The notes under the pieces are model-generated. The model was not told where the DNA came from. It did no database searches and saw nothing but the letters and a program-made list of their open reading frames with translations. From the IMG/VR virus record IMGVR_UViG_3300017768_000094, positions 1 to 23,318 of that record: a stretch of 23,318 nucleotides of DNA; one strand, 5' to 3'. The DNA comes from a virus. Positions 2,545 through 23,318 of the stretch are shown here, in pieces (the stretch's first letter is position 1; each line of letters starts with the position of its first letter). Position numbers and translations under genes: made by a program.

Positions 2545-3884
2545 TGGCTAAGAAGCTCTCAGAAACAGAGGCCAAGAAGATACTAGGTGTAGCAGGTGAC
2601 AACACCTCTAATGGTCAGATAAGGGCTGATGAGTTTCTACCTGAGCTTCGTGGCAAGAAAGCTATACGCAAGTACCGTGAGATGAGAGACAACGATAGCA
2701 CCATAGGTGCTGTTATGTATGCTACAGAACAAGTCCTTCGTGACGTAGACTTAAAGGTAATGCCAGCTAATGATACACCACAAGCTAAGAAAGAAGCTGA
2801 GTTCGTTGAAAGTATTCTTGATGACATGGACCACACTCTTGATGACCATGTCGCTGAAGCCCTTTCAAGTCTGTCTTATGGTTTTGCTTGGTTTGAGGTT
2901 ATCTATAAGAGACGTACTGGCCCTACTACAAGAAGCGACAAAGGCCGCTCTAAGTACTCTGATGGCCGTATGGGTGTACGGAAGATTGCTATTCGTGCGC
3001 CTTGGACAATCTCTAGGTTTGATGTAGATCAACAAACTGGTGATGTTAAGGGTATTTATCAGGATGGTTCGCGCTATAACAACACTAATTATATACCTAC
3101 TCGTAAAAGTCTGTACTACCGCACGACATCGCTTAATGGTGACCCTGCTGGCCGCTCTATACTTCGCAATGCTTATACTTCTTATGAATATGTCAATAAC
3201 CTACAGTCTATTGAGGCTATAGCAGTTGAGAGGGAACTTGCTGGTATCCCTGTTGCTCGTATCCCTGCTGAGTACTTGTCAGGTGATGCCACAGCGGCCC
3301 AATCTGGATTTGTCAATAACCTGCAAGGCATTCTCAGGGATGTCAAGTTCAATGAGCAAGGATACATTATTCTGCCTTCCGACACCTATCCCGATAAAGA
3401 CGGAGCGCCTACCAACCATAAACTGGTAGATGTAGAGCTTATGTCTTCTAACGGTACTCGTAATATTGATATAGACCCCGTAGTAAGACGCTATCAACAC
3501 GATATAGCCCGTAGCGTCCTTTCAGAGTTTCTTATGCTTGGTGGCGGTAATACTGGCTCTTATGCCCTATCCAAGAGTAAGACAGACTTGTTCCTCCGTG
3601 CATTAGAGAGTTATATCCAAGCTATTGTAGATGTCCTTAACAAGCAGCTTGTCGAGCGCCTCTGGGAGTTGAACGGTCTGAAATATGACCTTATGCCACA
3701 GATTGTGGCGGGGGATGTTGCACCACACGACTTAAGAGAGATTGCAGGTTTCCTAAGAAACCTAAATGGTGCAGATATTAACGTCAGTGATCACCCAGAG
3801 GTTATCCAAGACCTTATGGATATTGCTGAACTTAGATACGACCCAGATGTAGGGTCAACTCAAACACAAAAGGAAACTGACTAA
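2544..3884 (+). CDS. Portal protein (DUF935-like)
   Basis: The portal is the dodecameric ring at the capsid vertex through which DNA enters and leaves and to which TerL and the tail bind. The 446-residue protein follows terL directly, with a TAATG overlap. Its recognisable stretches include AWFEVIYKRR (115-124), the GRSILRNAY block (203-211) followed by a long helix with ERELAGIPVA (229-238), and a C-terminal helical segment, ALSKSKTDLFLRALESYI (341-358). These match the order seen in Mu gp29-like/DUF935 portals as I know them. The C-terminal region (about 390-435) is acidic and helical. The length fits siphovirus portals of 400-500 residues. The function is well supported by context; the exact subfamily is less certain. 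Confidence 0.87.
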   Translation: MAKKLSETEAKKILGVAGDNTSNGQIRADEFLPELRGKKAIRKYREMRDNDSTIGAVMYATEQVLRDVDLKVMPANDTPQAKKEAEFVESILDDMDHTLDDHVAEALSSLSYGFAWFEVIYKRRTGPTTRSDKGRSKYSDGRMGVRKIAIRAPWTISRFDVDQQTGDVKGIYQDGSRYNNTNYIPTRKSLYYRTTSLNGDPAGRSILRNAYTSYEYVNNLQSIEAIAVERELAGIPVARIPAEYLSGDATAAQSGFVNNLQGILRDVKFNEQGYIILPSDTYPDKDGAPTNHKLVDVELMSSNGTRNIDIDPVVRRYQHDIARSVLSEFLMLGGGNTGSYALSKSKTDLFLRALESYIQAIVDVLNKQLVERLWELNGLKYDLMPQIVAGDVAPHDLREIAGFLRNLNGADINVSDHPEVIQDLMDIAELRYDPDVGSTQTQKETD

Positions 3885-4252
3885 TGGCTTTTTTAGCTAA
3901 CGATATCTTTGATAGTGGGTTGAACGTGCTCAACACTGCTACAACAACAATTCACATCACCTCACAAGAGGCTACAACACGAACAGAAGCTGTGACTAAC
4001 TATGATTTAGGAGATGTAAGTGTTTCTATACCTGCTGCTGTAGACAGAACAGCAAGCGGTAATGGCCGTAAAGTAGTTGTCCCTGCTGTTACAACAGGAT
4101 CTGTAACTGCTACAGGCACAGCTACTCACTATGCTATCGTAGACGGTTCTCGTCTATTGGTAACTGGCTCCTTATCAGCTTCTCAGTCTGTGACAAGTGG
4201 TAACACTTTCTCACTAGCTACGTTTGATATCGGTATCCCAGACCCATCATAA
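3884..4252 (+). CDS. Small beta-rich phage protein of unknown function
   Basis: The 122-residue protein is rich in Thr, Ser, Val and Ala and looks all-beta. It starts MAFLANDIFDSGLNVLNT and has an ITSQEATT motif near residues 26-33. Similar short proteins are common next to fibre genes in phages of alphaproteobacteria and in their prophages, usually annotated as hypothetical; this is from memory, not a search. The gene overlaps the portal stop by one base and has AAAAGGA at 3867-3873 as a ribosome binding site. Position suggests either a virion decoration or a small fibre-associated protein. No catalytic residues, signal peptide or membrane segment are visible. Confidence 0.6.
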   Translation: MAFLANDIFDSGLNVLNTATTTIHITSQEATTRTEAVTNYDLGDVSVSIPAAVDRTASGNGRKVVVPAVTTGSVTATGTATHYAIVDGSRLLVTGSLSASQSVTSGNTFSLATFDIGIPDPS

Positions 4253-4263
4253 TAGGCTCTTAA

Positions 4264-6966
4264 ATGGCTAAGTTCGCAGATCGTGTAAAGGTATCTACGT
4301 CTACAACAGGCACAGGTACAGTCACCCTAGGCTCCGCAGAGTCTGGGTTTCAAACAGTGCCTTCTTCTCTTAACAGTGAAACCATTCGATATGTTATTGA
4401 AGATGGTACAGCTTGGGAGATTGGCACAGGAACCTATACACACTCAGGTACTACTCTCACACGGTCCTTAGCTAGTTCCAGTACGGGCAGCTTGCTTAAT
4501 CTGTCTGGTAGCGCCAAGGTGTTTATCTCACCAGCCGCAGAGGATCTGCAATACGTTGAGGTCTATAGTTCCACCAGCGACTTACCCTCAGCTTCTAGTA
4601 ATCACGGACGTATAGCTCATGTTCATGGCGATGGAGCTATGTATTTTGCTCATGGTGGTAGTTGGGTTCGCTTAGGCAACCACAGTGACATTAGTTCTTA
4701 CACCCTACCGACAGCTTCTGGCTCAACTCTTGGCGGCATTAAGATTGGTACTGGCCTAAGCATCGATGGATCTGGGGTGGTCACAGCTAGTGCTGGAAGC
4801 GCAGCCGATGCGACAAACTACAGCGTTACCAGCTACACTGCTTCGGCTGGCTCTAACACGTTTAACGCCTCAAGCAGCCCTGCCTTACCAGCTTATCAGG
4901 CCGGTAAATTAGCAGTTTATGTGAACGGTGTTTTACAGCCAGCTTCGGGCTACACAGCTACGAATGGCACTTCTGTTGTAATGACTTTGGCGGCTAATGA
5001 TGAAGTTAGCATTGTTAATCACGGTAAGCTTACTGGCAGCGTTTTAGACTTATCTGACACGCCTTCAAGTTTCGGCACAGCGGGTCAAGTTCTGCAAGTC
5101 AACAGCGGCACTAATGGCCTTGAGTTTGCAACTGCTTCTGGTGGTGTAAGCACGATTGGAAGTTTAGACTTTTCGCCTAGCGGTGTTAATGAAACCTCTA
5201 CGATCACAACTTCTAGCAATATGTCTAATGCGCCGTTTATTAGTGCGTTTAAAGAAGTGCCGCAAATTGGTGTGTCAAGCAAAGGCGATTGGGATGTAAA
5301 TTCTACTGCTTCAAACTATGACATATTAGACGAAGCGCCTTTATCTTATTCTGGAATAACTGTTACGCCTAGCAGTGCTACTGCGGATGGTACTTTTACA
5401 CTATCGTCAGGAAGTTTTGCGTCTAGTGATTTAGGCAAACAAGTTGCTGGCAACGGTGGAGTAGCGACAATTAAATCTACGGCTGGCGCTTATTCTTTAA
5501 CAACTGCTTTTACTAATACCAATACAATAGCGGCAGGGTCTTGGTCACTTAAAGGACTAATTGCAGATAGCTCTTTGGGGTTAAACATAAATGGTCACAT
5601 TGGGATTAGTCTTTCTTCGGCCTCGTATGACAACGTAAATAAACCAGTTTCACAACAAGATGGCCAACCTAATTCAATAGCGTTTAATGGTGACGGAACT
5701 AAACTATTTATGATTGGTGCAGTTAATAGTCGTGTTTATCGATACAGTTTAAACCCAGCTTACGATTTAAGCACTTTGTCGTATGACAGTTTAAATTATA
5801 ATATCAGTGCAGAATCTGGTACGCCGCAAGGTATTACTTTTGGTGACAGCGGTAATAAAATGTATATTTGTGATAGTAGCACAGATAAAGTTTTTCAGTA
5901 CAGTTTAGCTTCACCTTATGATTTAACCAATTTTTCTTATGATAATAAAGAGCTTGATTTAAGCAATGAAGATACTATTCCGCTAAAAGTGCTTTTAAGT
6001 AATGACGGCAGCAAGTTGTTTATGGTTGGCGCTGGGAATGACAAAGTTTATCAGTATTCTCTTACTGAGAATTTTGACATATCTACGGCTTCATACAATA
6101 GCGTAAGTTTAAGTGTGGCTTCTCAAGATACTGTTCCTACTGGAATTTCATTTAATTCTGATGGAACCAAACTATTTGTAATAGGATCACAAAATGACGC
6201 TGTTTATCAGTATAATTTACCTTCAGCTTACACTCTAACTAATGCATCTTACGATAGTATAAGTTTTAGCATTTCTTCTCAAATGACTAATCCAAGAGAT
6301 GTCATATTTAATAATACTGGTACTAAAATGTATGCCGTTGGTTCAACTAATGACAGAATTTATCAGTATAGCTGTGGTGATCTTATCATACCAACTTCGC
6401 AGTATTTAATAGCTACAACAAACTCAAGTGGGCAAATAGATACAACAGCTTGGAATGATTTAAATAGCCTAACTGCCGACGAAACATTAAACGATGGCGC
6501 AACATATTACGCATTCTCTACTGATGGGCGCACTACTTGGAAAGTTCAAGATTCAAGCGGAAATCTTAGAAGCATTGCTAAGTTAAATTCTGGCACTTGG
6601 CAGTATAATAATAACGCTACTTTCGGTTCTGAAACTTGGGTAAATGCTACAAACAACAATCAGCAATCTGCACTGCAACAAGCTCTAGGCGCTCAAGCAG
6701 TAAATAGGCTGACTGGTACAAGCTTGGCAACTTATTCTGACGCTAATTTATTAGCTACTGGCAATACGTTTGATCTAATGATTGGTCTTTATATAGGCGC
6801 TGCAGGAACAAGCCCAACTTCCGATGCGATTACAATTAATTACGATGCCAGTACTCAAAACAAAGGTGCAATTCTTGGCACTGATTACGATGTCGAAAAG
6901 CTGTCGGATACTCAGCTAAAGTTTACTGCTCTCACGCAGAAAAATATGCACTTTAAGGTGATATAA
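4264..6966 (+). CDS. Tail fibre/adhesin with five-repeat beta-propeller-like region
   Basis: A 900-residue structural protein, most likely a host-contacting fibre. Residues 1-145 form an N-terminal module typical of phage fibres: a '[13 protein letters not shown]' segment, then [15 protein letters not shown] and ending GGSWVRLG. A linker with GTAGQVLQV follows near 271-279. Residues 451-704 carry five repeats in strict 52-residue register. In each, an 'xGTK-hydrophobic' core (starting at 477, 529, 581, 633 and 685) is followed by a [V/I]Y/F-Q/R-Y-S/N pair of strands. This looks like a beta-propeller of the lactonase/NHL type. The C-terminal 190 residues are a separate Thr/Asn-rich domain ending FKVI. 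There is no signal peptide, as expected for an intracellularly assembled virion protein. From roughly 5150 the DNA is visibly more A+T-rich than the gene's first 500 bases. Confidence 0.75.
5692..6375 (+). repeat. Five in-register 52-codon repeats within the fibre gene
   Basis: Motif starts at residues 477, 529, 581, 633 and 685 are separated by exactly 52 residues (156 bases) each. Conserved elements are DG-T/S-K-L/M-F/Y, a small-residue turn, ND-x-V/I-Y-Q-Y-S and a following SYD. The repeats diverge at the nucleotide level, so the duplications are old but length has been preserved. Confidence 0.8.
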
Positions 6967-6967
6967 T

Positions 6968-8098
6968 ATGAGCAACGCATCAAATCTCAGCGCCCTTGCA
7001 AACGTCCTAGACAACGGCACCTCTGGGCAAGTTCTAACTTCTCAGGGTAGCGGAGTTTTAGCTTTTGCTGATGCCGCTAGTGGCGTAACAACATACGCTG
7101 ACACTGACTCTTTGCCTGAAAGCGGTAACAGCGCAGGGGATTTAGCCTATGTAACTGCAAACACAAGTCTGTATCATCACAATGGAACAGATTGGTATGG
7201 AGTAGAGCTAAGTTTATTTTCTGCATCTACGGCTGCTTGGTATGGTGATAGAGGTTTAACAGCAGGATTTAGTACGTCAGATGATCGTATTGATTATTAC
7301 GATATAACAACCGCTGGAAACGCATCAGATTTTGGGAATATGTCATCAGGAGGTTATGGAAATAACGGGATGGCATCTAACGGAACTCGTGCTGTGTTTG
7401 GCGGGGTTGGATGGGTAGGCGGCATGGGAAACCCTACAACTATTGATTATTATACGACTGCCACACCTTCAAATTCAACTGACTTTGGTGATCTCACTGT
7501 GGGCCGCAACTGCGTAGCACTTTCAAATGGCACTTACGCTGTATTTGCAGGTGGCGGTTCAACTATTAATACCATTGACTACATCACGATAGCCTCTGCT
7601 GGCAATGCTACTGATTTTGGCGACACACTTGCGAATTTACATAGTTCTTCTGCGCTCTCAGATGCAACAAGAGGGGTTATTGGTGGGGGTTTTTCTGGTG
7701 GATTGATAAACGTACTGCAATACGTCACGGTAGACACCCCAAGCAATGCTACTGATTTTGGCGATTTACTAGCGGTAAACATGGATTGCGGTGCTTGCAG
7801 CGATACAACTAGAGGTTTGTTTTGTGGTGGTAATAATACAAATGTTCTGCAATACATTACAATTCAAAGTGCAGGTAATGCTACTGATTTTGGTAATTTA
7901 ACAGTTGTAACTAAAAATTCCGCTGCTTGTAGCAACGGAACGAGAGCCGTAATCAGCTTGAGCATGGTTGATTATGACACTGCTTCAAACCGTATGGATT
8001 TTGTTACTATACAAACTCTTGGAAACGCCTCAGATTTTGGAGACTTAACAACAACTACAACTGTTCCTTTAGCATCTACTTCGGGGGCTGCATCATAA
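6968..8098 (+). CDS. Fibre/adhesin with six Kelch-like 'DFG' repeats
   Basis: A 376-residue protein translated right after the long fibre. Residues 1-80 hold a stem/linker module (GQVLTSQGSG at 20-29, then SLPESGNSAG and HHNGTDWYG) that parallels the N-terminal module of the preceding protein. Residues 91-360 contain six repeats of 44-51 residues. Each has N-A/S-T/S-DFG-D/N (Asp at 121, 172, 216, 263, 307 and 356) and, in between, a 'T-R-A/G-V-F/I-GGG' strand followed by IDY/LQY. This is the signature of a Kelch-type propeller. Such propellers commonly bind glycans or proteins, so a receptor-binding or fibre-tip role is inferred. No enzymatic motif is evident. AAGGTGA near 6955 serves as ribosome binding site. 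The end overlaps the next gene by one base (TAATG). Confidence 0.7.
   Translation: MSNASNLSALANVLDNGTSGQVLTSQGSGVLAFADAASGVTTYADTDSLPESGNSAGDLAYVTANTSLYHHNGTDWYGVELSLFSASTAAWYGDRGLTAGFSTSDDRIDYYDITTAGNASDFGNMSSGGYGNNGMASNGTRAVFGGVGWVGGMGNPTTIDYYTTATPSNSTDFGDLTVGRNCVALSNGTYAVFAGGGSTINTIDYITIASAGNATDFGDTLANLHSSSALSDATRGVIGGGFSGGLINVLQYVTVDTPSNATDFGDLLAVNMDCGACSDTTRGLFCGGNNTNVLQYITIQSAGNATDFGNLTVVTKNSAACSNGTRAVISLSMVDYDTASNRMDFVTIQTLGNASDFGDLTTTTTVPLASTSGAAS
7238..8047 (+). repeat. Six Kelch-like repeats (44-51 residues)
   Basis: The shared core N-A/S-T/S-DFG recurs at residues 121, 172, 216, 263, 307 and 356 of the encoded protein, giving spacings of 51, 44, 47, 44 and 49. Unlike the neighbouring 52-residue array the spacing varies, with indels in the loops, and the motif is unrelated. 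Confidence 0.8.
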
Positions 8099-8919
8099 TG
8101 ACACAAGTAATTACAAAGCCAATTACGTTTAGCCTACCTGTTGAGGCTTCTGAAAACATAAATCAGTTAGCCGCTGCACGAGTAGCAGAAAAACTACCTA
8201 TGATTGACCAAGCAACAAGGGCTTTTGATCGTCAAAACAGTCAGACCACTATCAATATGATGACTTTGACTATGCTTAACGGTCACAGCCCTATGCGTAT
8301 GCTTCGTCAGATTACGGCTGAAGTTGAAAAACGTAAGATGGCATTATCAGAAGCCCAAGTTACTCACGCTGAGTTGCGAGAGGAAATAATGGAGTTAGAG
8401 GGCTTAGAGGACGCCGTGTCTGAGGCCAAGCTACGCCATAAGCGCCACTCTCTTGTGTCCATCGAAAACAAGATTAACGGGAGCATTAAAGACATTGCTA
8501 CGATGATTGATGCCTACGAAAACATTCAAGAAACACACGGCATTAAAGAGTGGGATGAGCTTGCTTTTGAAGCTGAAGAAAAGCGTCACCACGTTAGGCG
8601 TGGGTTCGAGTTAATGTACAGAAACCTAATGGATGGCGGCAGAGCTTCGACAGCTACCATTGAATATATGACACAGTACGGCGTTCATCCTCAAGTTGGC
8701 TTGACGGAAGTGTCGGGATACATTCAGCACACAGCTAACAGAATAGCCAACCATGACTTGCCGCACTCAAATGATCTTGAGGACTTCTTAGATCAGATGG
8801 CTGATAAGTATTGTGCTAACGCAGACAAAACGGCTGAACGCATATTTGGTAAGGCTGATTTTTTAAACCCTGAATATATGCTGCAAATTGAAAAGAAGAG
8901 TGATCAAGATGTATCTTGA
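8098..8919 (+). CDS. Hypothetical helical protein with coiled coil (273 aa)
   Basis: I do not recognise an assigned function. The protein looks almost wholly alpha-helical. Residues 66-130 form a charged coiled-coil-like stretch (MRMLRQITAEVEKRK, then AELREEIMELEGLEDA). The middle contains EEKRHHVRRGFELMYRNL, and the C-terminal third has DLEDFLDQMADKY. It lies between repeat-rich fibre genes, overlapping the previous stop by one base (TAATG), so a role in fibre folding, attachment or assembly is plausible. Alternatively it is a virion protein. There is no signal peptide or membrane helix. The paired small gene after it overlaps its end, suggesting that the two are co-translated. Confidence 0.6.
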   Translation: MTQVITKPITFSLPVEASENINQLAAARVAEKLPMIDQATRAFDRQNSQTTINMMTLTMLNGHSPMRMLRQITAEVEKRKMALSEAQVTHAELREEIMELEGLEDAVSEAKLRHKRHSLVSIENKINGSIKDIATMIDAYENIQETHGIKEWDELAFEAEEKRHHVRRGFELMYRNLMDGGRASTATIEYMTQYGVHPQVGLTEVSGYIQHTANRIANHDLPHSNDLEDFLDQMADKYCANADKTAERIFGKADFLNPEYMLQIEKKSDQDVS

Positions 8920-9196
8920 GTATAAATTACATATGACTGATGGCGGTATGAAAACACCGCTTTGGATTGCAGATGGTGGTTATTTTGCTGATCCTGACAG
9001 CCATACAATGATTGGTTATTCGCCAGACAATAGAGAATATTATATTCCAGACACTGTAACAACTTACACTAAAACAGAGCTAGTTGCGGTGGTTCAAGGC
9101 ATTCACTCCCGTTACCCAATGTTAAATGAAGACGATAGCACTATGACCAGCGATGAAGTCGCAGCGGTTGTGAATGCTTGGTGTGCCGAAAGGTAA
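8909..9196 (+). CDS. Small hypothetical protein (95 aa)
   Basis: The best start is the ATG at 8909 (MYLEYKLHMTDGG). It has an AAGAAGAG ribosome binding site at 8893-8900 and overlaps the preceding stop by 11 bases, a typical coupled arrangement. An in-frame non-ATG start at 8888 would add seven basic residues and lacks an equally placed site. The product has an aromatic N-terminal half (PLWIADGGYF, YYIPDTV) and a helical C-terminus ending VVNAWCAER. No family is recognised. Context suggests it acts with the 273-aa protein before it. Confidence 0.6.
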   Translation: MYLEYKLHMTDGGMKTPLWIADGGYFADPDSHTMIGYSPDNREYYIPDTVTTYTKTELVAVVQGIHSRYPMLNEDDSTMTSDEVAAVVNAWCAER

Positions 9197-9199
9197 CAA

Positions 9200-11272
9200 A
9201 TGTTAGGCTTTAGTCCTCTCGCATCAGCGCCACTAGCTGATGATGGATTAGTTAAGGTAGAGCTAACACCAGTTAGTGTCTCTGCTCAAGCTCCTTCTGT
9301 ATCTGACGTAGTCTTTACTCAAGTACACTCTTTAACTTCTGTAGCTATTTCCACTGGTACACCTACAGTAGGGTCTACTGCACCTACTCAAGTACACTCT
9401 CTTACAGCTACAGGCGTAACTACACAGAACCCTGTTGTTCCTAGTTTAAGCTTATTACAAGTACACGGTTTACCTACTGTTGATATTTCTACAGATACAC
9501 CTGTTGTAGGCAACCCTGTACTTACGCAAAGCTTCACACTATTAACAAGTTCTATTTCCACTGGTAGCCCTGAAGTAAATAGTGCTGCACTGTCTCAGGT
9601 TCACATAGTTAGCACTACGGATATTTCCACCGGTGCTTCAAGTGTTGATGCTACAGATATAACTCAGGTACACTCTGTATCTCTTAGCGATACAACATCT
9701 GGTTCTCCTGCTACAGGTAACCCTGATCTAGATGAAGAGCATTCCGTAACCCTATCAAGCGTAACCACAGGTTCTCCAACTTTAGGTAGTCCTGTATGTA
9801 ACGCCTTTGACCTTGTACTATCTGCTAACGATCTTACAGCAGGTACTCCTATTTTAGCAAATCAAAGGACTGAAGGTTACGACTCCGCTAGAAGCGATTA
9901 CTTTGATAATACTGTCGTTACTGGTCCTGTCACTATTCTAGATAAGGGTTCAGTTACAGGTTACCGATTATCTGGTGTATTTTGGACTATAAGAACTGCT
10001 AGTATATCTGAGAACTCCTCCACAATAACTTTTGAGACTTATCACGAAAGAATCTATAACAACGGAACCTCTCAATGGTACGATGTAAACATTACCCTTT
10101 ACAAGACCGGCAACACTGTTGCTTCTTATTCAGAAGGTAGTCAGTTTAATCAATCTAACCACCCCTATAACTATGGAGCACCTCCTCACTCAGCTTTTTC
10201 TGGCTATATAGATTTTGCTGATTTACAAGATCACTTAAACAATGCCAGTGACTATGACTGGATGGACCATGATTTTGTTAACTCTGCTGGTACTGATGCT
10301 AGTGCTTATCCTGTTTACCTAAACGGATCAGGAACAGGTGCATTTTTGAAGAGGGTAAGCGATAACTACACATACGATTCTGTATTCACTGGTAATGTTT
10401 CGGGTAGCACCACCTCAAGATTCGTAGGTAAAAACTATCGTGTGATAGCGGGATCATTTGTCCCTAATACTAATTATGTTACTCAATTTAGTGCTGCTAG
10501 ATTTGACCCTAGTTTTAACTTTACACAGATCAATGACGCTACACTAACACACCTTGAAACTGGTTTAGATCTACTAGGATTTGACACTGGCGTACCTGTA
10601 GTAGGTAACGCAACTCTTATCCTTAATCAACAGATTGCTGCAAACGGGGTAAGCTCTGGAATACCTATTGTAGGTTCTCCTAGCTCAACACAGAGTCAAG
10701 CTTTATCTCCAATCAGTGTAGAAGCTCAGTTACCTGTAGTAGCTGCAACAAGTATATCTCAAGACCACTCTGTTGAAGCTGTAGATACATCAACTCAGAG
10801 TCCTGTTTTACAAAGCCCTGATATAGATCAATACCACGTCTTAGGGGCATCTGAGGTAAGCGCAGGGACGCCTGTTGTAGGATCTACTACAGTAAGTGAG
10901 TTTCAAGTATTAGGTTCTCCTGTTGAAATACTAACAGGTGTACCTGAAGTAGGTAACGCAACTTTTATTCGTAATAATCAGTTTGCAGCAAACGATGTAA
11001 GCGCAGGAACACCTGTTGTAGGGTCACCTGATCTTACAGAGGTTACTCTAAGTGTTTCCCTTTCAAGTATTACTACAGGCTCCCCAGACCTAACAAACGT
11101 AGTGTTACTGCAAGATCATTTACTTGCAGCTGACGATGTAACTACAGCATTAGCAGAAGTAGGTCAGACTAGCTTTGTGTTTAAAGGTAAAATAGGGGCG
11201 TTAAATTCTGTCACTGTAAACTTAAGCAAGAACTCAACCGCAGTAAACTTATCAAGAAACAGCGTAGGTTAG
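9200..11272 (+). CDS. Repeat-rich fibre protein with central inserted domain
   Basis: A 690-residue protein with three parts. Residues about 22-222 hold nine repeats of 23 residues, with consensus near D-I/V-S-T-G-T/S-P-V-V-G-S followed by L-T-Q-V-H-S-L. Residues about 225-455 are a non-repetitive, aromatic and Asn-rich globular domain (FWTIRTASIS, YHERIYNNGT, HDFVNSAG). Residues about 457-655 hold nine more copies of the same repeat. The motif prolines (or replacements) fall at 32, 55, 78, 101, 124, 147, 170, 193 and 217, and again at 466, 489, 512, 535, 558, 582, 605, 629 and 652. A beta-solenoid or fibrous stalk is likely, with the central domain displayed midway; a fibre role is inferred from this and the neighbours. 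AAAGGT precedes the start. It ends with a Ser/Asn-rich tail. Confidence 0.7.
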   Translation: MLGFSPLASAPLADDGLVKVELTPVSVSAQAPSVSDVVFTQVHSLTSVAISTGTPTVGSTAPTQVHSLTATGVTTQNPVVPSLSLLQVHGLPTVDISTDTPVVGNPVLTQSFTLLTSSISTGSPEVNSAALSQVHIVSTTDISTGASSVDATDITQVHSVSLSDTTSGSPATGNPDLDEEHSVTLSSVTTGSPTLGSPVCNAFDLVLSANDLTAGTPILANQRTEGYDSARSDYFDNTVVTGPVTILDKGSVTGYRLSGVFWTIRTASISENSSTITFETYHERIYNNGTSQWYDVNITLYKTGNTVASYSEGSQFNQSNHPYNYGAPPHSAFSGYIDFADLQDHLNNASDYDWMDHDFVNSAGTDASAYPVYLNGSGTGAFLKRVSDNYTYDSVFTGNVSGSTTSRFVGKNYRVIAGSFVPNTNYVTQFSAARFDPSFNFTQINDATLTHLETGLDLLGFDTGVPVVGNATLILNQQIAANGVSSGIPIVGSPSSTQSQALSPISVEAQLPVVAATSISQDHSVEAVDTSTQSPVLQSPDIDQYHVLGASEVSAGTPVVGSTTVSEFQVLGSPVEILTGVPEVGNATFIRNNQFAANDVSAGTPVVGSPDLTEVTLSVSLSSITTGSPDLTNVVLLQDHLLAADDVTTALAEVGQTSFVFKGKIGALNSVTVNLSKNSTAVNLSRNSVG
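9263..9865 (+). repeat. N-terminal array of nine 23-residue (69-base) repeats
   Basis: The period is exactly 23 residues for eight intervals except the last (24). The conserved core is T-G-T/S-P followed by V-V-G and Q-V-H. Copies differ in nucleotide sequence, so this is a protein-level repeat, not a recent tandem duplication. Confidence 0.8.
10568..11164 (+). repeat. C-terminal array of nine 23-residue repeats
   Basis: The same unit as the N-terminal array resumes after the inserted domain. The motif is at 466, 489, 512, 535, 558, 582, 605, 629 and 652 (spacings of 23, twice 24). The best copies read SAGTPVVGSP. The last copy is degenerate (TTALAEVG). Confidence 0.8.
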
Positions 11273-11273
11273 A

Positions 11274-11600
11274 ATGCCAGACTTCTTTATAAAACAAAAC
11301 GACACTTCCCCTACTTTCCAAGCCACACTTAAAAGTCCTTTAGGTTCTAATGAGAACTTAACAGGTGTCCAAAGTGTAACTTTTAAGATGGCTAACTCTG
11401 TTCAAGTAGTAAAGATAAGCCAGCCTGTTACCATAGATGACGCTGCAAACGGTAAGGTTACCTATGAGTGGCAAACAGGGGATACGGATACCTCTGGAAC
11501 ATTCTTTGCAGAGTTTGAAGTTATAAAAGCAGACGGTAAGAGGGAGACCTTCCCCAACACTGATCCTATAAATGTAATTATTAAGAAGGACGTTGTGTAA
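11274..11600 (+). CDS. BppU N-terminal-like baseplate/fibre protein
   Basis: The 108-residue protein resembles the N-terminal domain of lactococcal phage baseplate upper protein BppU. That domain anchors receptor-binding proteins to the tail. Supporting residues are FFIKQNDTSPTFQATL at 4-19, VTFKMAN near 34-40, and the strand pair YEWQTGDTDTSGTFFAEFEV at 64-83, followed by ADGKRETFPN. The fold expected is a beta-sandwich. Here the domain stands alone, without the usual C-terminal stalk. It follows the 690-residue fibre by one base and ends in a TAATG overlap with the protease gene. It may be an adaptor between the fibre and the virion. The family match is from recognition of motifs, not a search. 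Confidence 0.65.
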   Translation: MPDFFIKQNDTSPTFQATLKSPLGSNENLTGVQSVTFKMANSVQVVKISQPVTIDDAANGKVTYEWQTGDTDTSGTFFAEFEVIKADGKRETFPNTDPINVIIKKDVV

Positions 11601-12661
11601 TGCCTAAAGGGTTAGCCGAAAAAGTAAAAACACATAACGCTAAGTCTAAGCACAAGGTTACAACAAGTATGCTGCAGTCAGTGTACAACAGAGGTGTAGG
11701 TGCTTATAGAACTAACCCATCATCTGTTAGACCTAATGTTACCGGTCCTGAGCAATGGGCAATGGCTAGGGTAAACAGCTTCTTAAAGATTGTAGCTGGG
11801 TCTAAGTCACCTAAGCACGACAAGGACTTACTACCTTCTAGTCACCCCTCTAGCACTAAAAAGATGGACGATGGTTACTATGTAGACAAAGCCGATAAAC
11901 CTCTTAACAAACCCTTTAGACTTCCCTCTGGTTCTAGTAAGAAGTTTGGTGTGTATGTTAAAGACGGTGAGAAAACCAAGAAAGTTACCTTCGGAGATCC
12001 TAACATGGAGATCCGTCGAGATGACCCTAAAGCCAGAGCTAATTTCCGCTCTAGGCACTCTTGTGATACAGCTACAGATAAGACTTCTGCTAGGTACTGG
12101 TCCTGTCGTATGTGGAGTGGGGCAACGGTGGGTAGTATGACCAAGGCAGAAGAAGATTTTAAACCTCATCAGATGTATGACCCTAAGACAGGTGATGCTT
12201 TAATAGCCGCCACCTATGAGCAACATCTAGATTTGAAGGAAAGAGGCTACACTCACAATAGACCTCTTACAAAAAGTATTGAAGGTCAAATCCTAAAGGC
12301 TGACGAAGAACAGCGTCTAGTCTATGGATGGGCCTCAGTTGTTACTGAGAAAGGTGAGCCAGTGGTTGACCGTCAAGGTGACGTAATAGAACCTGAGACA
12401 CTTGTTAAGGCTGTCAACAGCTTTATGGAACATATTCGTGTCGGTAAACAGATGCATACAGGGGATCAGATTGGGTCAGTTATCCATTCCATGCCTATCA
12501 CTAAAGAGATTGGTGACTCCCTTGGCATACAGAGTGACCGTGAAGGCTGGATTGTAGCTTTCAAAGTCCATGACGATAACGTCTGGGCAAAGGTCAAGTC
12601 TGGTGAACTTGCGGCCTTCTCTATTGGGGGTCGTGCAATCAAGGAGGACTATAGTGCCTAA
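11600..12661 (+). CDS. XkdF-like prohead protease with N-terminal extra domains
   Basis: Residues 226-347 match the XkdF-type phage serine protease: RLVYGWASVV, then VVDRQGDVIEPETL, a His region MHTGDQIGSVIH (H286, H296), EGWIVAFKVHD and the FSIGG motif with S341 as probable nucleophile. Such proteases cut scaffold and capsid proteins during head maturation. Two more domains precede it. Residues 1-76 are basic (starting MPKGLAEKVKTHN), of a type seen in several phage head proteins. Residues 86-172 include KKFGVYVKDGEK, GDPNMEIRRDDP and a HxC...C element (H153, C155, C169). The gene lies two genes upstream of the decoration protein and directly before the scaffold. Its last eight bases overlap the scaffold start. 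The usual strand after FSIGG (EISLVDxPAN) is not in this ORF but in the next one. Confidence 0.75.
   Translation: MPKGLAEKVKTHNAKSKHKVTTSMLQSVYNRGVGAYRTNPSSVRPNVTGPEQWAMARVNSFLKIVAGSKSPKHDKDLLPSSHPSSTKKMDDGYYVDKADKPLNKPFRLPSGSSKKFGVYVKDGEKTKKVTFGDPNMEIRRDDPKARANFRSRHSCDTATDKTSARYWSCRMWSGATVGSMTKAEEDFKPHQMYDPKTGDALIAATYEQHLDLKERGYTHNRPLTKSIEGQILKADEEQRLVYGWASVVTEKGEPVVDRQGDVIEPETLVKAVNSFMEHIRVGKQMHTGDQIGSVIHSMPITKEIGDSLGIQSDREGWIVAFKVHDDNVWAKVKSGELAAFSIGGRAIKEDYSA
12641..12656 (+). promoter_or_regulatory. Ribosome binding site that fixes a GTG start for the scaffold gene
   Basis: AAGGAGG (12641-12647) is the strongest Shine-Dalgarno match in the head region. It lies six bases before GTG at 12654-12656, inside the end of the protease gene. 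It supports reinitiation here rather than at the in-frame ATG at 12570, which lies deep in the protease and has no comparable site. Confidence 0.75.
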
Positions 12662-18355: not shown

Positions 18356-18693
18356 TTGAAGAGCTTATTGGGTATGCAGAACATAGCTTCACTCTCAGTA
18401 AGTCCGACAAGAATGGCACTTCCCAAAGAGAACACTTGCAACAAGTACAAAGGCAGACCGGTAAGACACCAAAGGAATTAGAAAGCCCTCCCTTTCCCAC
18501 GTTGGTATCTCACATATGGTCTGCCTTTATTGCGTTAAGTTCAGCTAGAACTAACGGTTACAATGGACCTAATCCTCTTACATACACCGATATAAAAGCT
18601 TGGGTAGAGCTAACTAATTCCTGTGTCTCCTCTAGAGATGTAGAAGCAATCAAACTCTTAGACACAGTTTTCATAAGGACACAGAATGGCTGA
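18331..18693 (+). CDS. Tail assembly chaperone C-terminal extension, expressed by -1 frameshift (gpT-like)
   Basis: The -1 frame relative to the short chaperone is open from 18331 to the TGA at 18691-18693. It reads LIEELIGYAEHSFTLSKSD across and after the short form's stop. It continues with QREHLQQVQRQTGKTP, a Trp-containing helix (HIWSAFIALSSARTNG), then NPLTYTDIKAWVEL and DVEAIKLLDTVF, a pattern common to phage G-T extensions. There is no ATG in the region. A TTG at 18436 has no good ribosome binding site and would cut the domain, so an independent gene is unlikely. The fused product is about 245 residues if the shift is at the TTTT run near 18340. The end overlaps the tape measure start by eight bases. 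Confidence 0.75.
   Translation, partial: ELGFYRGLIEELIGYAEHSFTLSKSDKNGTSQREHLQQVQRQTGKTPKELESPPFPTLVSHIWSAFIALSSARTNGYNGPNPLTYTDIKAWVELTNSCVSSRDVEAIKLLDTVFIRTQNG
18338..18345 (+). promoter_or_regulatory. Probable -1 frameshift site (GATTTTAC)
   Basis: In the short chaperone frame the codons are GAT TTT ACA. A tRNA-Phe on TTT (18341-18343) can move back one base to TTT (18340-18342) with full pairing. The shift must occur between 18331 and 18352. No X-XXY-YYZ heptamer is present in that interval. A Shine-Dalgarno-like GAGGAGG lies upstream at 18314-18320, a possible stimulator, although farther away than in dnaX. Confidence 0.4.
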
Positions 18694-21064
18694 CATAATA
18701 CTAGACATAGAGGTCAGAGGTAAGAAAGAGCTAAAGGCTGCTGCTAATGAGTTTATGCGGGCTGGTGAAGTGTCAAGAAGATTGGCTGCGGACTACAGTG
18801 CTGTAGCAGCTAAAAATAAACGTTTGGTAGATGAAACAAGAAGACTGGAAGCTGTAAAGAAAAAGCTTAACACAGCTGTAAAAGATGAGATTATCTCAAG
18901 AGGTCAAGCTACACGAGCTTTAGACGAGGAAATGCGTAAGTCTAAAGAAAAGATACTTACGGATAAAATCTTAATAGATCAAGAAAAGAAACGTATAAAG
19001 CTTTTAGAAGAAGATGCCAAACGTACAGCTAAGTTAGTAAAAGCTTACGCTCCTGCTAGGGTAGCTCTTGCTAGTTATAAGAAACAAGTCCTAGAGATTA
19101 AAACTGCTCAGAAACAAAAGATACTATCCGATAAAGAGGCAAAAGCAGCTTTAGCACAGCTCACAAAAGAGTATCAGCAGTTTACTGCGGGTGTGGCTAC
19201 TGGGGGAAACCAGTTTGCTAGGTTTAACGTAGACACGTATAAGTCAATACAAAAGTTTAAAAGGAACATGTCTGTAGGTTTCCAACAGGCAGGTTATCAG
19301 GTAGGTGACTTTATAGTTCAGGTACAATCTGGACAATCTGTTCTTGTAGCCCTAGGTCAACAGGGTTCTCAGTTAGCCGGTATCTTTGGTCCTGCAGGTG
19401 CTGTAGTGGGTGCCTTTGTTGCTGCAGCAACTGCTTTTGGTATGATTGCAATAGCAGCTTCCAAAGCTAAGAAGTCTATGACAGGTATGCAGGACTTATC
19501 CAACAGTTTTGCCCCTGCCACCAAAACTATGACTGACGCTATAAAGAACCAACATATGGAAATCTTTAAGCTGACAAGAGGTATAGACGATCAGAATGAA
19601 GCTATAGGTAAGCAAGCCTTACAGTATCAGAAAGCCTTACAAACCGCTAACGAGTACTTGTCTTCTCAAGAAAAGGACAACAGGTCTGGTCTTCAAAGAA
19701 TAAGAGCTAACGGACTTAAGATACTAGGGTTCCAACTTGTAAAGAGTGATAAGCAGAGAGTAGAGCAGCTAGAGAAGCAGAATGAGATATACAAGAAGCT
19801 TAAAGATCAAGCTGATGCTCTAAAGGAAAAAGAAGAGAAGCGTAAGAAGTTCCTTGAAGAGCAGCTAGAGCTTAAACAAAAGTTCTTAGACGCTGAAAAA
19901 GAATTAGATGACGCTGGTGCAGATGCTGCTATCAAAGCTTCTATAGCTATAGCTAATGAAGAAGATAAGCTTGCTATACTAAGAGAAAGAGCTTCTGGGT
20001 TACTAAACGAAAAAGAGATACAGAAGCTTATAGACGAACAAGCTATAAAAGACCTAAAAGCTAAACTAGGTCTACAGCTTCTACACTCAGAAAATGCAGA
20101 AGATATAATATCCACAAGGGTTGCTCAGTTAGTAGAAGAACAAAAACTAACTGCAGAGTTAAAAGAACAAGAGAGAATACTCAAAAGACAAGCCAAGATA
20201 GGTAACAAAGCTATCTTAGGTATGACAGATGAAGAGTATCAGTATCACCTAAACATGTCAGCTTATGTCGAAGGTAGAATGGCTGCTCCCGATAAAGCTA
20301 CTAAGGGTAAAGCCCCTCCTAAACCTCGTAAAGCTCCTAAAGATCCTCTGCAAGAGCTTATGAAGAGCCTTACGTTACAAGAGAGTCTTCTAGGTGTAGA
20401 GCAAGATAGAGCTGCAGTTATGAAAGCCCTAGGAGATTCTTATAGTAATTACACTCCTGAGCAAATAGATTCAGCTATAGAGCTTACAGAGTACATAAGA
20501 AAGCAGAACGAAGCTCTAAAAGCTCAACAAGATGAGTTAGATCGTATTGATGATCAAGCTAAACAATTAGCTGCACCCTTCGATGACTTCTTTATGGCTT
20601 TAGTTGACGGTACTACATCAGCTAAAGATGCCTTCAGATCTATGGCTTCCGATATCATACAACAGCTTTACAGAATACTTGTAGTTGAGGAGCTAGTAGA
20701 GTCCATAGGAGGAGCTATCAAAGGGGCTATTGCTGGGCCAGTACAAGGTCCAAACTTACCTAGTGCAGACGGTGGTGGATACACAGGGTCAGGCCCAAGA
20801 TCGGGTGGCTTAGATGGTAAGGGTGGCTTTATGGCTATGCTACACCCTAGAGAGACTGTCATAGACCACACTAAGGGTCAGGGTGCTGGTGGAGGTACAG
20901 TAGTAAACCAAGTATTCAATATCTCAGCTAATACATCAGACGATACTAAGAGACTTATTACTCAGACAATAGCACAAGCCTCACCAGCTATCATCAATCA
21001 GTCCGTAGGTGCAGTTATGAACCAAAGACGTAGAGGTGGTGCAATGAAATCAGCATTTGGATAA
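18686..21064 (+). CDS. Tail tape measure protein
   Basis: The longest helical protein here, 792 residues. It sets tail length and is ejected through the tube at infection. The N-terminal 170 residues are a charged coiled coil. Residues about 199-230 contain FQQAGYQVGDFIVQVQSGQS and ALGQQGSQLAGIFGP, common in lambda-like tape measures. They are followed by a hydrophobic segment at about 231-258 (VVGAFVAAATAFGMIAIAA) that could insert into the host membrane. After a second coiled coil, the C-terminal region (PFDDFFMALVDGTTSAKDAF near 631, GGGYTGSGPRSGG, HPRETVIDH) matches the lambda tape measure C-terminal domain. By the usual rule of about 1.5 angstroms per residue, a tail of roughly 120 nm would result (inference). 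AAGGA at 18675-18679 is the ribosome binding site. Confidence 0.93.
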   Translation: MADIILDIEVRGKKELKAAANEFMRAGEVSRRLAADYSAVAAKNKRLVDETRRLEAVKKKLNTAVKDEIISRGQATRALDEEMRKSKEKILTDKILIDQEKKRIKLLEEDAKRTAKLVKAYAPARVALASYKKQVLEIKTAQKQKILSDKEAKAALAQLTKEYQQFTAGVATGGNQFARFNVDTYKSIQKFKRNMSVGFQQAGYQVGDFIVQVQSGQSVLVALGQQGSQLAGIFGPAGAVVGAFVAAATAFGMIAIAASKAKKSMTGMQDLSNSFAPATKTMTDAIKNQHMEIFKLTRGIDDQNEAIGKQALQYQKALQTANEYLSSQEKDNRSGLQRIRANGLKILGFQLVKSDKQRVEQLEKQNEIYKKLKDQADALKEKEEKRKKFLEEQLELKQKFLDAEKELDDAGADAAIKASIAIANEEDKLAILRERASGLLNEKEIQKLIDEQAIKDLKAKLGLQLLHSENAEDIISTRVAQLVEEQKLTAELKEQERILKRQAKIGNKAILGMTDEEYQYHLNMSAYVEGRMAAPDKATKGKAPPKPRKAPKDPLQELMKSLTLQESLLGVEQDRAAVMKALGDSYSNYTPEQIDSAIELTEYIRKQNEALKAQQDELDRIDDQAKQLAAPFDDFFMALVDGTTSAKDAFRSMASDIIQQLYRILVVEELVESIGGAIKGAIAGPVQGPNLPSADGGGYTGSGPRSGGLDGKGGFMAMLHPRETVIDHTKGQGAGGGTVVNQVFNISANTSDDTKRLITQTIAQASPAIINQSVGAVMNQRRRGGAMKSAFG

Positions 21065-21067
21065 ATC

Positions 21068-21664
21068 ATGGCTATAAGTTACCCTCTTAATACACCTACA
21101 ACTATTGGCATAGAGAGTATTGAACTACGTGCCATGAATGCTGTAGCTGTCTCTCAGTCCCCCTTTACATATAAGCAACAGGTTATTTCCCATCAGGGTC
21201 AAATTTGGAGTGCTTCAGTCAGTATTCCCTCAGTGCGTAGGGATCTAGCTGCTGACTGGAAAGCTATGCTTATAGCCCTTAAGGGTTCTGTAGGCACGTT
21301 TCTACTGGGTGACCCTGACTATGCTACACCTAGAGGTACAGTGAGTGGTACGCCTACTCTGACAGGAGATGCGGGTAAAGATACAGTACAAATCACTCTT
21401 ACAGGAACTCTATTAGCGGGTGATTACATTCAGCTAGGCACAGGTTCTGCTGCTAGGTTGCACCAAGTACTAGTCGATAGGGCGGCTGGTACAGACGTTG
21501 ACTTAGAGATCTGGCCTAAACTAAGGAGTACATACTCAGGTGAAACTGTAATTTACAACAACCCTAAAGGTGTCTTTAGACTTGGGCAGAGTACTACTTC
21601 TTGGACTATAGACAACGCCAGTTTTTACGGTATATCTTTTGATGCAATAGAGGCACTACAGTAA
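21068..21664 (+). CDS. Distal tail protein-like
   Basis: A 198-residue beta-rich protein directly after the tape measure. It contains SPFTYKQQVISHQGQIWSAS (residues 32-51), then a helix DLAADWKAMLIALKG and FLLGDPDYATPRG. The C-terminal part has LLAGDYIQLGTG, LEIWPKLRS and FRLGQSTTSWTIDN. This order is seen in distal tail proteins of siphoviruses, which form a hexamer at the tube end and connect it to the hub and fibres. The gene order (tape measure, this gene, hub protein, J-like protein) supports it. It overlaps the next gene by one base (TAATG). The ribosome binding site is weak. Family assignment is tentative because the class is divergent. Confidence 0.65.
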   Translation: MAISYPLNTPTTIGIESIELRAMNAVAVSQSPFTYKQQVISHQGQIWSASVSIPSVRRDLAADWKAMLIALKGSVGTFLLGDPDYATPRGTVSGTPTLTGDAGKDTVQITLTGTLLAGDYIQLGTGSAARLHQVLVDRAAGTDVDLEIWPKLRSTYSGETVIYNNPKGVFRLGQSTTSWTIDNASFYGISFDAIEALQ

Positions 21665-22314
21665 TGTCCCGTACTTTACCTTCAGTAATAACCAACTCTT
21701 TAGACAACAGTGTTATTAACCCTTTCTTTGCTGTTGAAATGAATTTCGATAACAACAATATCTTGCGTCTATGGACAGGGGTAGGAACCCTTACGTTTAA
21801 TGGACAGGATTGGGCAGGTGCTGGTACTCTACTAGGTATATCTGCTGTGGAAGAAACTACAGAGACTGCTGCTAGAGGTGCAGATATTACTATTACAGGT
21901 ATGCCCTCTGAGGTATTAGCCCTAGCTCTCAGTACTCCATATCAAGGTAGAACCTGTAAGATATACTTTGGTTTATTTGAAGTTGCTTCAGACAAGATAT
22001 TAAAAGAGGACTCATCTTTCTTGTTGTTAGAAGATGGATCTAAAATATTTCTGGAAGACCTAAACTCTGGTCTAACTGAGATATTCTGTGGTTACATGGA
22101 TCAGATGAATATAGCTGAAGGTGCTGATACAGGTACTATCCAAGTTAAGGTTGAGAATAAACTAATTGACTTAGAGAGAGCTAGGGTTGCTAGGTATACT
22201 GCTGAGTACCAAAGATCTAGGGATATAGTTGGTGCAAGTACAGATGCTGGGTTTGATTTTGTAGCTAGTATGCAAGACCAGAGACTTGCTTGGGGTAGGA
22301 GTTCTGAAAGCTAA
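21664..22314 (+). CDS. Tail hub-associated protein (DUF2163-like)
   Basis: A 216-residue protein starting MSRTLPSVITNSLDNSVINP, followed by FFAVEMNFDNNNILRLWTGV and GTLTFNGQDWAGAGTLLGIS. It then has VEETTETAARGADITITGMP. The first half resembles the beta-domain of DUF2163/GTA-type tail proteins, which sit at the distal tail next to the hub. The middle carries a short acidic Leu/Glu duplication (SSFLLLEDGSKIFLED). The C-terminal part reads CGYMDQMNIAEGADT and IQVKVENKLIDLERAR and ends QRLAWGRSSES. It is coupled to its neighbours by TAATG overlaps on both sides. Confidence 0.65.
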   Translation: MSRTLPSVITNSLDNSVINPFFAVEMNFDNNNILRLWTGVGTLTFNGQDWAGAGTLLGISAVEETTETAARGADITITGMPSEVLALALSTPYQGRTCKIYFGLFEVASDKILKEDSSFLLLEDGSKIFLEDLNSGLTEIFCGYMDQMNIAEGADTGTIQVKVENKLIDLERARVARYTAEYQRSRDIVGASTDAGFDFVASMQDQRLAWGRSSES

Positions 22315-23318
22315 TGGCTTTAGATATTGATTTTCGTAAGTTTGATTTATTAGACCGAGAGTCTCAACTTGGGGCCGCTGTTACAGCAGCAGTTACCTTT
22401 GCTGTTGCATATTACTACGGTATACCTTTACCTGACGGGGGTACAACAGCGGGTTCTCTAGCTTTGTCTGCTAGTGCTGCAGGTACGTCTTATGCAGCCT
22501 CTCTGGGGGCATCTGTATTAACCAAGGCACTGTTACCAAAACCAGAACTTAGAGGGGGCGATCAAGGTTATCTAATAACTCAAAGAGGCTCAACTATGCC
22601 TCATCAGATTATCTATGGTAAAACTAGGATAGCTGGTGGTATAGTCTTCCAAGGAACTACAGATAACAATAAATACTTACACACTGTATTAGCTTTTGCT
22701 GGACATGAAGTAGAAGAATTTGAAACTATTTATTTTAATGATGAAGTTCTTACTCTAAGTGGTAATAATGTTACGGCCCCAGCTAAGTATGCAGGTAAAG
22801 TTAAAATAGTTAAGAAGCTAGGTACAACTACGCAGACCGCCGTTACATCCTCAGATGTAGATTTTATTGACATTCCTGCAAAGTGGACCACAGATTGTAA
22901 GTTATTAGCTACAGCCTACCTCTATGTTGTGTTGGAATTTGATTCTAATGCATTCCCTAACGGTGTTCCAGAAGTCACAGCTATAGTCAAAGGTAAGAAG
23001 GTCTACGATCCTCGTACAAGCACTACAACTTGGTCTGACAATCCTGCCCTATGCTTAAGAGATTACATTACGTCAGGTAAGGGTGGAGATAATACAACTA
23101 TCTATAACTATGGTATCAGTGAGGATATTGAAAGTGTAGATGATGACCTTGTTACTATAGCAGCTAATGTCTGTGACCATCTAAGCTACCCTGATCTGTC
23201 AGGTGGTACTAGGTTCTCTCTTAATGGTGCATTCACTACTAACACTACACCTTACGATGCTGTACAGAACTTATCTACTGCAATGGGTGGATTACTTTGG
23301 TATGCTCAAGGTAAGTGG
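22314..23318 (+). CDS. Tail tip / host specificity protein (J-like), 3' end outside window
   Basis: An open frame starts at ATG 22314 in a TAATG overlap and runs 335 codons to the window end without a stop. It begins MALDIDFRKFDLLDRESQLG. Two hydrophobic Ala/Gly-rich stretches follow at about 19-37 and 46-72. Then comes QRGSTMPHQIIYGKTRIAGG (about 90-109), the pattern of the N-terminal part of lambda gpJ-like tip proteins, and VLAFAGHEVEEFETIYFNDE. Later stretches include VPEVTAIVKGKKVYDPRTS and NPALCLRDYIT, also typical. Such proteins form the central tip that contacts the receptor and start tail assembly. The true length is unknown, and full family members often exceed 1,000 residues. Confidence 0.8.
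   Translation, partial: MALDIDFRKFDLLDRESQLGAAVTAAVTFAVAYYYGIPLPDGGTTAGSLALSASAAGTSYAASLGASVLTKALLPKPELRGGDQGYLITQRGSTMPHQIIYGKTRIAGGIVFQGTTDNNKYLHTVLAFAGHEVEEFETIYFNDEVLTLSGNNVTAPAKYAGKVKIVKKLGTTTQTAVTSSDVDFIDIPAKWTTDCKLLATAYLYVVLEFDSNAFPNGVPEVTAIVKGKKVYDPRTSTTTWSDNPALCLRDYITSGKGGDNTTIYNYGISEDIESVDDDLVTIAANVCDHLSYPDLSGGTRFSLNGAFTTNTTPYDAVQNLSTAMGGLLWYAQGKW

Follow-up and report, generated by a model that had tools for sequence, protein, structure and literature searches.

What kind of protein is encoded by the open reading frame at 9200-11272 (+), and does its internal symmetry have a function? The window, i.e., the whole analysed stretch of 23,318 bases of a virus record, is syntenic with Roseobacter phage CRP-6. 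The product of this frame has 690 aa, and two arrays of short repeats flank its non-repetitive middle part, as follows.

9200..9262, + strand: conserved N-terminal anchor, residues 1-21, with the MLGFSPLASAPLADDG start (homologue comparison)
9263..9865, + strand: left array, nine 23-residue repeats, residues 22 to ~222, the ninth truncated (PSSM, autocorrelation z 12.2)
9866..10564, + strand: inserted non-repetitive domain, residues 223-455 (no period; separate divergence from relative L001)
10565..11191, + strand: right array, nine 23/24-residue repeats, residues 456-664 (PSSM, autocorrelation z 6.8)
11192..11272, + strand: C-terminal tail, residues 665-690, plus stop (comparable tails in relatives)

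At lag 23, the self-comparison z reached 12.2 in residues 1-226 and 6.8 in residues 457-690, while 2000 shuffles gave at most 4.4-4.5 across all lags. By the same comparison, no period was seen in the middle residues 227-456 (best z 2.9, inside the shuffled range). PSSM placement located the repeat starts at residues 22, 45, 68, 91, 114, 137, 160, 183, and 207 on the left and at 456, 479, 502, 525, 548, 572, 595, 619, and 642 on the right, so that the spacing is 23 residues with three 24s within the arrays. The insert leaves only ~15 of 23 residues of the ninth left copy, and the right copies 1, 6, and 9, which score 7.6, 6.8, and 3.4 against a 99% shuffle threshold of 9.4, were included in the count on grounds of spacing. 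These data bear out the sequence-only reading of this DNA, in which nine plus nine units at ~23-residue spacing were separated by about 230 non-repetitive residues. The family repeat consensus is L-T-A-x-x-[IV]-x-T-G-x-P-x-V-G-S-x-x-[IL]-x-Q-x-H-x.

The same reading gave the equal count a functional meaning and suggested, among other things, two antiparallel shaft halves with the domain at a hairpin tip; it named the repeat counts in related phages as the check. An IMG/VR scan revealed two close relatives, L001 and L002, each 851 aa long, in which the same domain is preceded by 16 repeats and followed by 9. Their alignment to the window protein contains a single in-register gap of 161 residues, which is exactly 7 x 23. 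Since repeats 1-2 of the window correspond to repeats 1-2 of L001, and repeats 3-8 to repeats 10-15, a block of seven repeats was gained or lost. The DNA identity of 90-91% among L001 repeats 2, 3, and 5 indicates a recent duplication.

A wider scan with the repeat profile collected 26 IMG/VR loci and one Planctomycetaceae contig. Among the relatives with the MLGFSPLASAPLADDG motif, uninterrupted repeats number 7 in L046, 10 in L043, 11 in L041, and 24 in L039. Two inserts were found by reading: L044 has one after 6-7 repeats with about 20 repeats behind it, and L032 has one after repeat 1 with about 34 behind. Thus, the distant relatives sharing the N-terminus either have no insert or carry an unrelated one elsewhere, and their repeats range from 7 to ~35. 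No insert of any kind interrupts the arrays of L039, L041, L043, L046, and CRP-6 gp57. The N-terminal anchor is identical in L001 and L002 and near-identical in L032, L039, L041, L043, L044, and L046, and short N/R-rich C-terminal tails comparable to that of the window protein also terminate its relatives.

Because the relatives carry 7 to ~35 repeats, unequally placed, the 9 + 9 symmetry is a coincidence of the window genome, and the number nine per side has no function. A hairpin in which matched shaft halves fold back with the domain at the tip finds its sole support in the equal count of the window protein; matched halves would not survive such count variation, given 16 + 9 repeats around the same insert in the closest homologues and unequal or insert-free arrays in the rest. 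The homologue counts rule out an equal-arm hairpin or functional symmetry as a conserved feature, and we regard it as extremely improbable.

At L028 2595-5817, a very long 23-residue array appears to be divided between two overlapping frames, perhaps due to a frameshift or sequencing error. The repeat protein on the Planctomycetaceae MAG contig (L048, 5284-6966) possibly belongs to a prophage or to a viral contig in the bin.

The insert differs from the arrays in its history. Its identity to L001 is 98.7% versus 85-89% for the adjoining arrays; nucleotide differences between the window and L001 are 9/699 in the insert and 162/1230 in the arrays (Fisher p = 5e-23), while between L001 and L002 they are 40/699 and 16/1230, respectively (p = 1e-7). 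The identity shift lies near codons 221 and 482, as judged from sliding identities and from the codons that differ. Since the insert is so much closer to L001 than its flanks are, it appears from these three sequences to be a discrete module with a genealogy of its own, exchanged by recombination. Its variation occurs in patches, codons 256-259 and 375-446, around a nearly invariant stretch; dN/dS is 0.7-1.0, a value resting on few sites and on only three compared sequences. A recombining module with variable patches fits the expectation for a binding domain, and the insert probably binds a cell surface or extracellular polysaccharide. It was found in just two relatives, the close ones L001 and L002, and searches of Pfam, PHROG, and PDB (including the insert profile against PDB) returned nothing credible for it. 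Homology to the L044 insert, plausible by eye, was rejected (hhalign probability 0.2%, Smith-Waterman score equal to the shuffled mean). A diversity-generating retroelement as the source of the variation was also rejected, the changes being without adenine bias.

The gene order of the window is terminase, portal, 122-aa gene, fibre-like genes, repeat gene, BppU_N, protease, 123-aa protein, major capsid protein, and tail genes, where capsid and tail genes without a Pfam match were labelled from gene order and size. The genes around the repeat gene form a cassette.

3884..4252, + strand: 122-aa relative of phage head/neck whisker proteins, opening the cassette (PHROG_240, PDB 9c39_K)
4264..6966, + strand: 900-aa fibre-like protein (homologue comparison)
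6968..8098, + strand: 376-aa repeat protein that resembles a propeller by eye (homologous to L032 proteins)
8098..8919, + strand: 273-aa protein, function unassigned (85% identical in L032)
8888..9196, + strand: 102-aa protein directly upstream of the repeat gene (homologues in the same position in L032 and L044)
11274..11600, + strand: 108-aa protein with a stand-alone BppU N-terminal domain, the next gene after the repeat gene (PF10651, E 2.2e-5, above cutoff)

The N-terminal ~100 aa of the 900-aa protein are common to cassette genes at other loci, and its residues ~446-712 match propeller-like repeats of roseophages; part of this product has 36-43% identity to proteins of Roseobacter phages CRP-2, CRP-9, CRP-13, and CRP-738. 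L032 carries three tandem homologues of the 376-aa protein at 2-2660, which suggests cassette expansion. The head protease (11600-12661) matches Peptidase_S78_2 and also PHROG_1530 "DNA methyltransferase" (E 1.5e-27); given the former match, the latter is probably a mis-named family. L005 is a genus-mate of the window phage (TerL and portal are each 92% identical), and the interval from its 122-aa gene to its protease encodes just one repeat protein, a different one, so cassette content is exchanged too.

Where on the virion the product is located can be approached through its neighbours. Among 30 non-redundant repeat loci, 21 carry a gene of the 122-aa type on the strand of the repeat gene, and in 10 the two genes abut or overlap; most of the nine loci that lack it have little upstream DNA. 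PHROG_240 "head protein" is matched by 11 of 14 members of this family, and the family profile matches PDB 9c39_K with E 2.1e-4 over ~46 residues; the 122-aa gene also has a weak PF23140 match, below the cutoff. The map deposited as PDB 9C39 shows the neck of Shigella phage Sf14; in this phage gp30 and gp31, encoded after the portal gp29, form neck whiskers (PMC11821841). The Sf14 order is portal, gp30 whisker, gp31 whisker, and further on decoration and capsid, and Sf17, a relative, has its 110-aa gene in second place behind portal; from gene order and length, the 110-aa chain 9c39_K is most likely gp31. The whisker genes resemble the window cassette in their position directly after portal, and this 110-aa chain is remotely related to the 122-aa cassette product. 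The neck match belongs to the 122-aa neighbour and does not involve the repeat protein, for which PDB searches with the 690-aa sequence and the repeat profile found no link to the whiskers. On the other side of the repeat gene, a BppU_N gene follows directly in 11 loci. For lactococcal phages, it has been proposed that the collar of the neck passage structure is made by a domain of the BppU_N type (PMC6669499). A stand-alone BppU_N also occurs behind a large laminin-G protein, beside terminase and portal, in Halorubrum virus HRTV-25 (L051, 2299-7339), a pairing that resembles the one in the window, though this haloarchaeal virus is very distant.

We give about even chances to the proposal that the protein is a surface fibre of CRP-6-type marine roseophages, mounted on the neck or collar, with the repeats as its shaft and the exchangeable insert as its binding domain. 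Such a fibre would be attached through the conserved N-terminus; its 23-residue units would form a shaft whose length is altered by gain or loss of whole repeats, and the middle domain, inserted into the array and swapped between phages by recombination, would give specificity. A fibre shaft with a separate binding domain had been put forward from the letters alone and stands as the best general reading, since its length varies by whole repeats, the insert has recombined separately from the arrays, and genes for propeller-like, LamG, and BppU_N proteins lie nearby; the functional symmetry that went with it falls, as the counts are unequal elsewhere. Direct observation covers the repeats and their varying number, the optional insert with its separate recombination history, and the gene neighbourhood.

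The same cassette could be encoded near the head genes while its products are assembled on the tail, as a receptor-binding fibre of the tail tip or baseplate. BppU_N takes its name from a baseplate protein, and such domains occur in tail baseplates too; the L032 insert matches PHROG tail-fibre families, and the CRP-6 cassette genes gp59-gp61 carry tail and tail-fibre annotations. However, "tail fibre" is here an annotation from similarity only, the first cassette gene is a relative of head/neck proteins, and the cassette, flanked by portal and protease, is a long way from the tape-measure and tail-tip genes at 18686-23318. We therefore consider a tail location possible, if unlikely.

The nature of the shaft is a separate question. 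AlphaFold2 monomer models reached a mean pLDDT of 28.8 for the full-length protein (15 rows) and 39.0 for six repeats (29 in-register rows), with a confident fold for neither repeats nor insert. This low confidence, together with the composition of the N array (K+R 0.5%, S+T 33%, aromatics 2%), would agree with an unfolded, Ser/Thr-rich, nearly K/R-free spacer: the insert would be displayed on an entropic bristle or tether instead of a rigid shaft. However, low AlphaFold2 confidence is expected anyway when oligomeric shafts are modelled as monomers; because monomers were modelled, the pLDDT values speak neither for nor against a trimeric shaft. Moreover, the hydrophobics conserved at repeat positions 1, 6, 13, and 18, with T8, G9, and P11 (a T-G-x-P motif), suggest a folded repeat unit, as does the strict spacing across divergent phages. 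We consider an unfolded spacer unlikely; for the neck fibre proposed above, the location, the shaft and binding roles, and the oligomeric state are inferences.

The closest known protein is gp57 of phage CRP-6 (QBQ72781.1), annotated only as a hypothetical protein. It is syntenic with the window protein (before a BppU_N-like gene and the protease), has the 23-residue period and a similar N-terminal motif (MFGTSPFAAATFAG), but consists of 422 aa with an uninterrupted array and lacks the middle domain. We define here a CRP-6 gp57-type family by the [ML][LF]GxSP[LF]A motif, the 23-residue repeats, and the position before BppU_N and protease, all of which are found in the window protein. A tblastn search of GenBank phages with the 690-aa protein or the repeat consensus gave no match; CRP-6 gp57 was missed in this way and found via its neighbour, because strong divergence hides the homology. 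No curated model in Pfam or PHROG matches the repeat, and Pfam has no match in the 690-aa protein, from which the BppU N-terminal domain is also absent, PF10651 being located in the separate downstream gene. PDB contains no match for the 690-aa protein and nothing credible for the repeat profile. Pfam Apolipoprotein and NosD matches in related repeat proteins were below curated cutoffs and were taken as chance from repeat composition.

Like the window system, the lactococcal neck passage structure (PMC6669499) joins a shaft to a BppU-type domain and a carbohydrate-binding domain that varies, and its gene is expressed with the capsid. However, all of these domains belong to a single chain there, whose shaft is proposed to be a coiled coil; the window encodes BppU_N on its own, as a small protein, and has a 23-residue repeat for a shaft. 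The bead-chain neck fibres of Anabaena phage A-1(L) (PMC10966104) are likewise long neck fibres of many repeating units, but their beads are many gp81 copies, while the window has tandem repeats in a single chain. The window protein resembles neck fibres and neck passage structures functionally and is set apart from both by the lack of a sequence match. The repeat family is new and unclassified, although its general kind, phage surface fibres, is already known.

With dozens of phage contigs, a cultured representative in CRP-6 gp57, and zero curated-family matches, the family represents a common type of phage surface protein that has stayed unannotated. Phages of the CRP-6 type are ubiquitous ocean viruses (PMC6918029); should the neck assignment hold, they bear exchangeable neck adhesins besides any tail fibres, and since CRP-6 is cultured, the idea is testable on the phage itself. 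The recombination pattern provides a natural example of a domain swapped within a repeat array. A bolder suggestion, doubtful at present, is that the repeat is an undescribed oligomerisation-dependent fibre fold, from which many phages, marine and other, would build long neck appendages of variable length, and which would serve as a rack for unrelated binding domains at different places.

A related histidine-rich repeat of 22 residues (..SPxLTQVHxLxVxxAxHxH..) occurs in large phage proteins at L016 and L019, and it has one GenBank relative, in Microcystis phage Mae-JY22.
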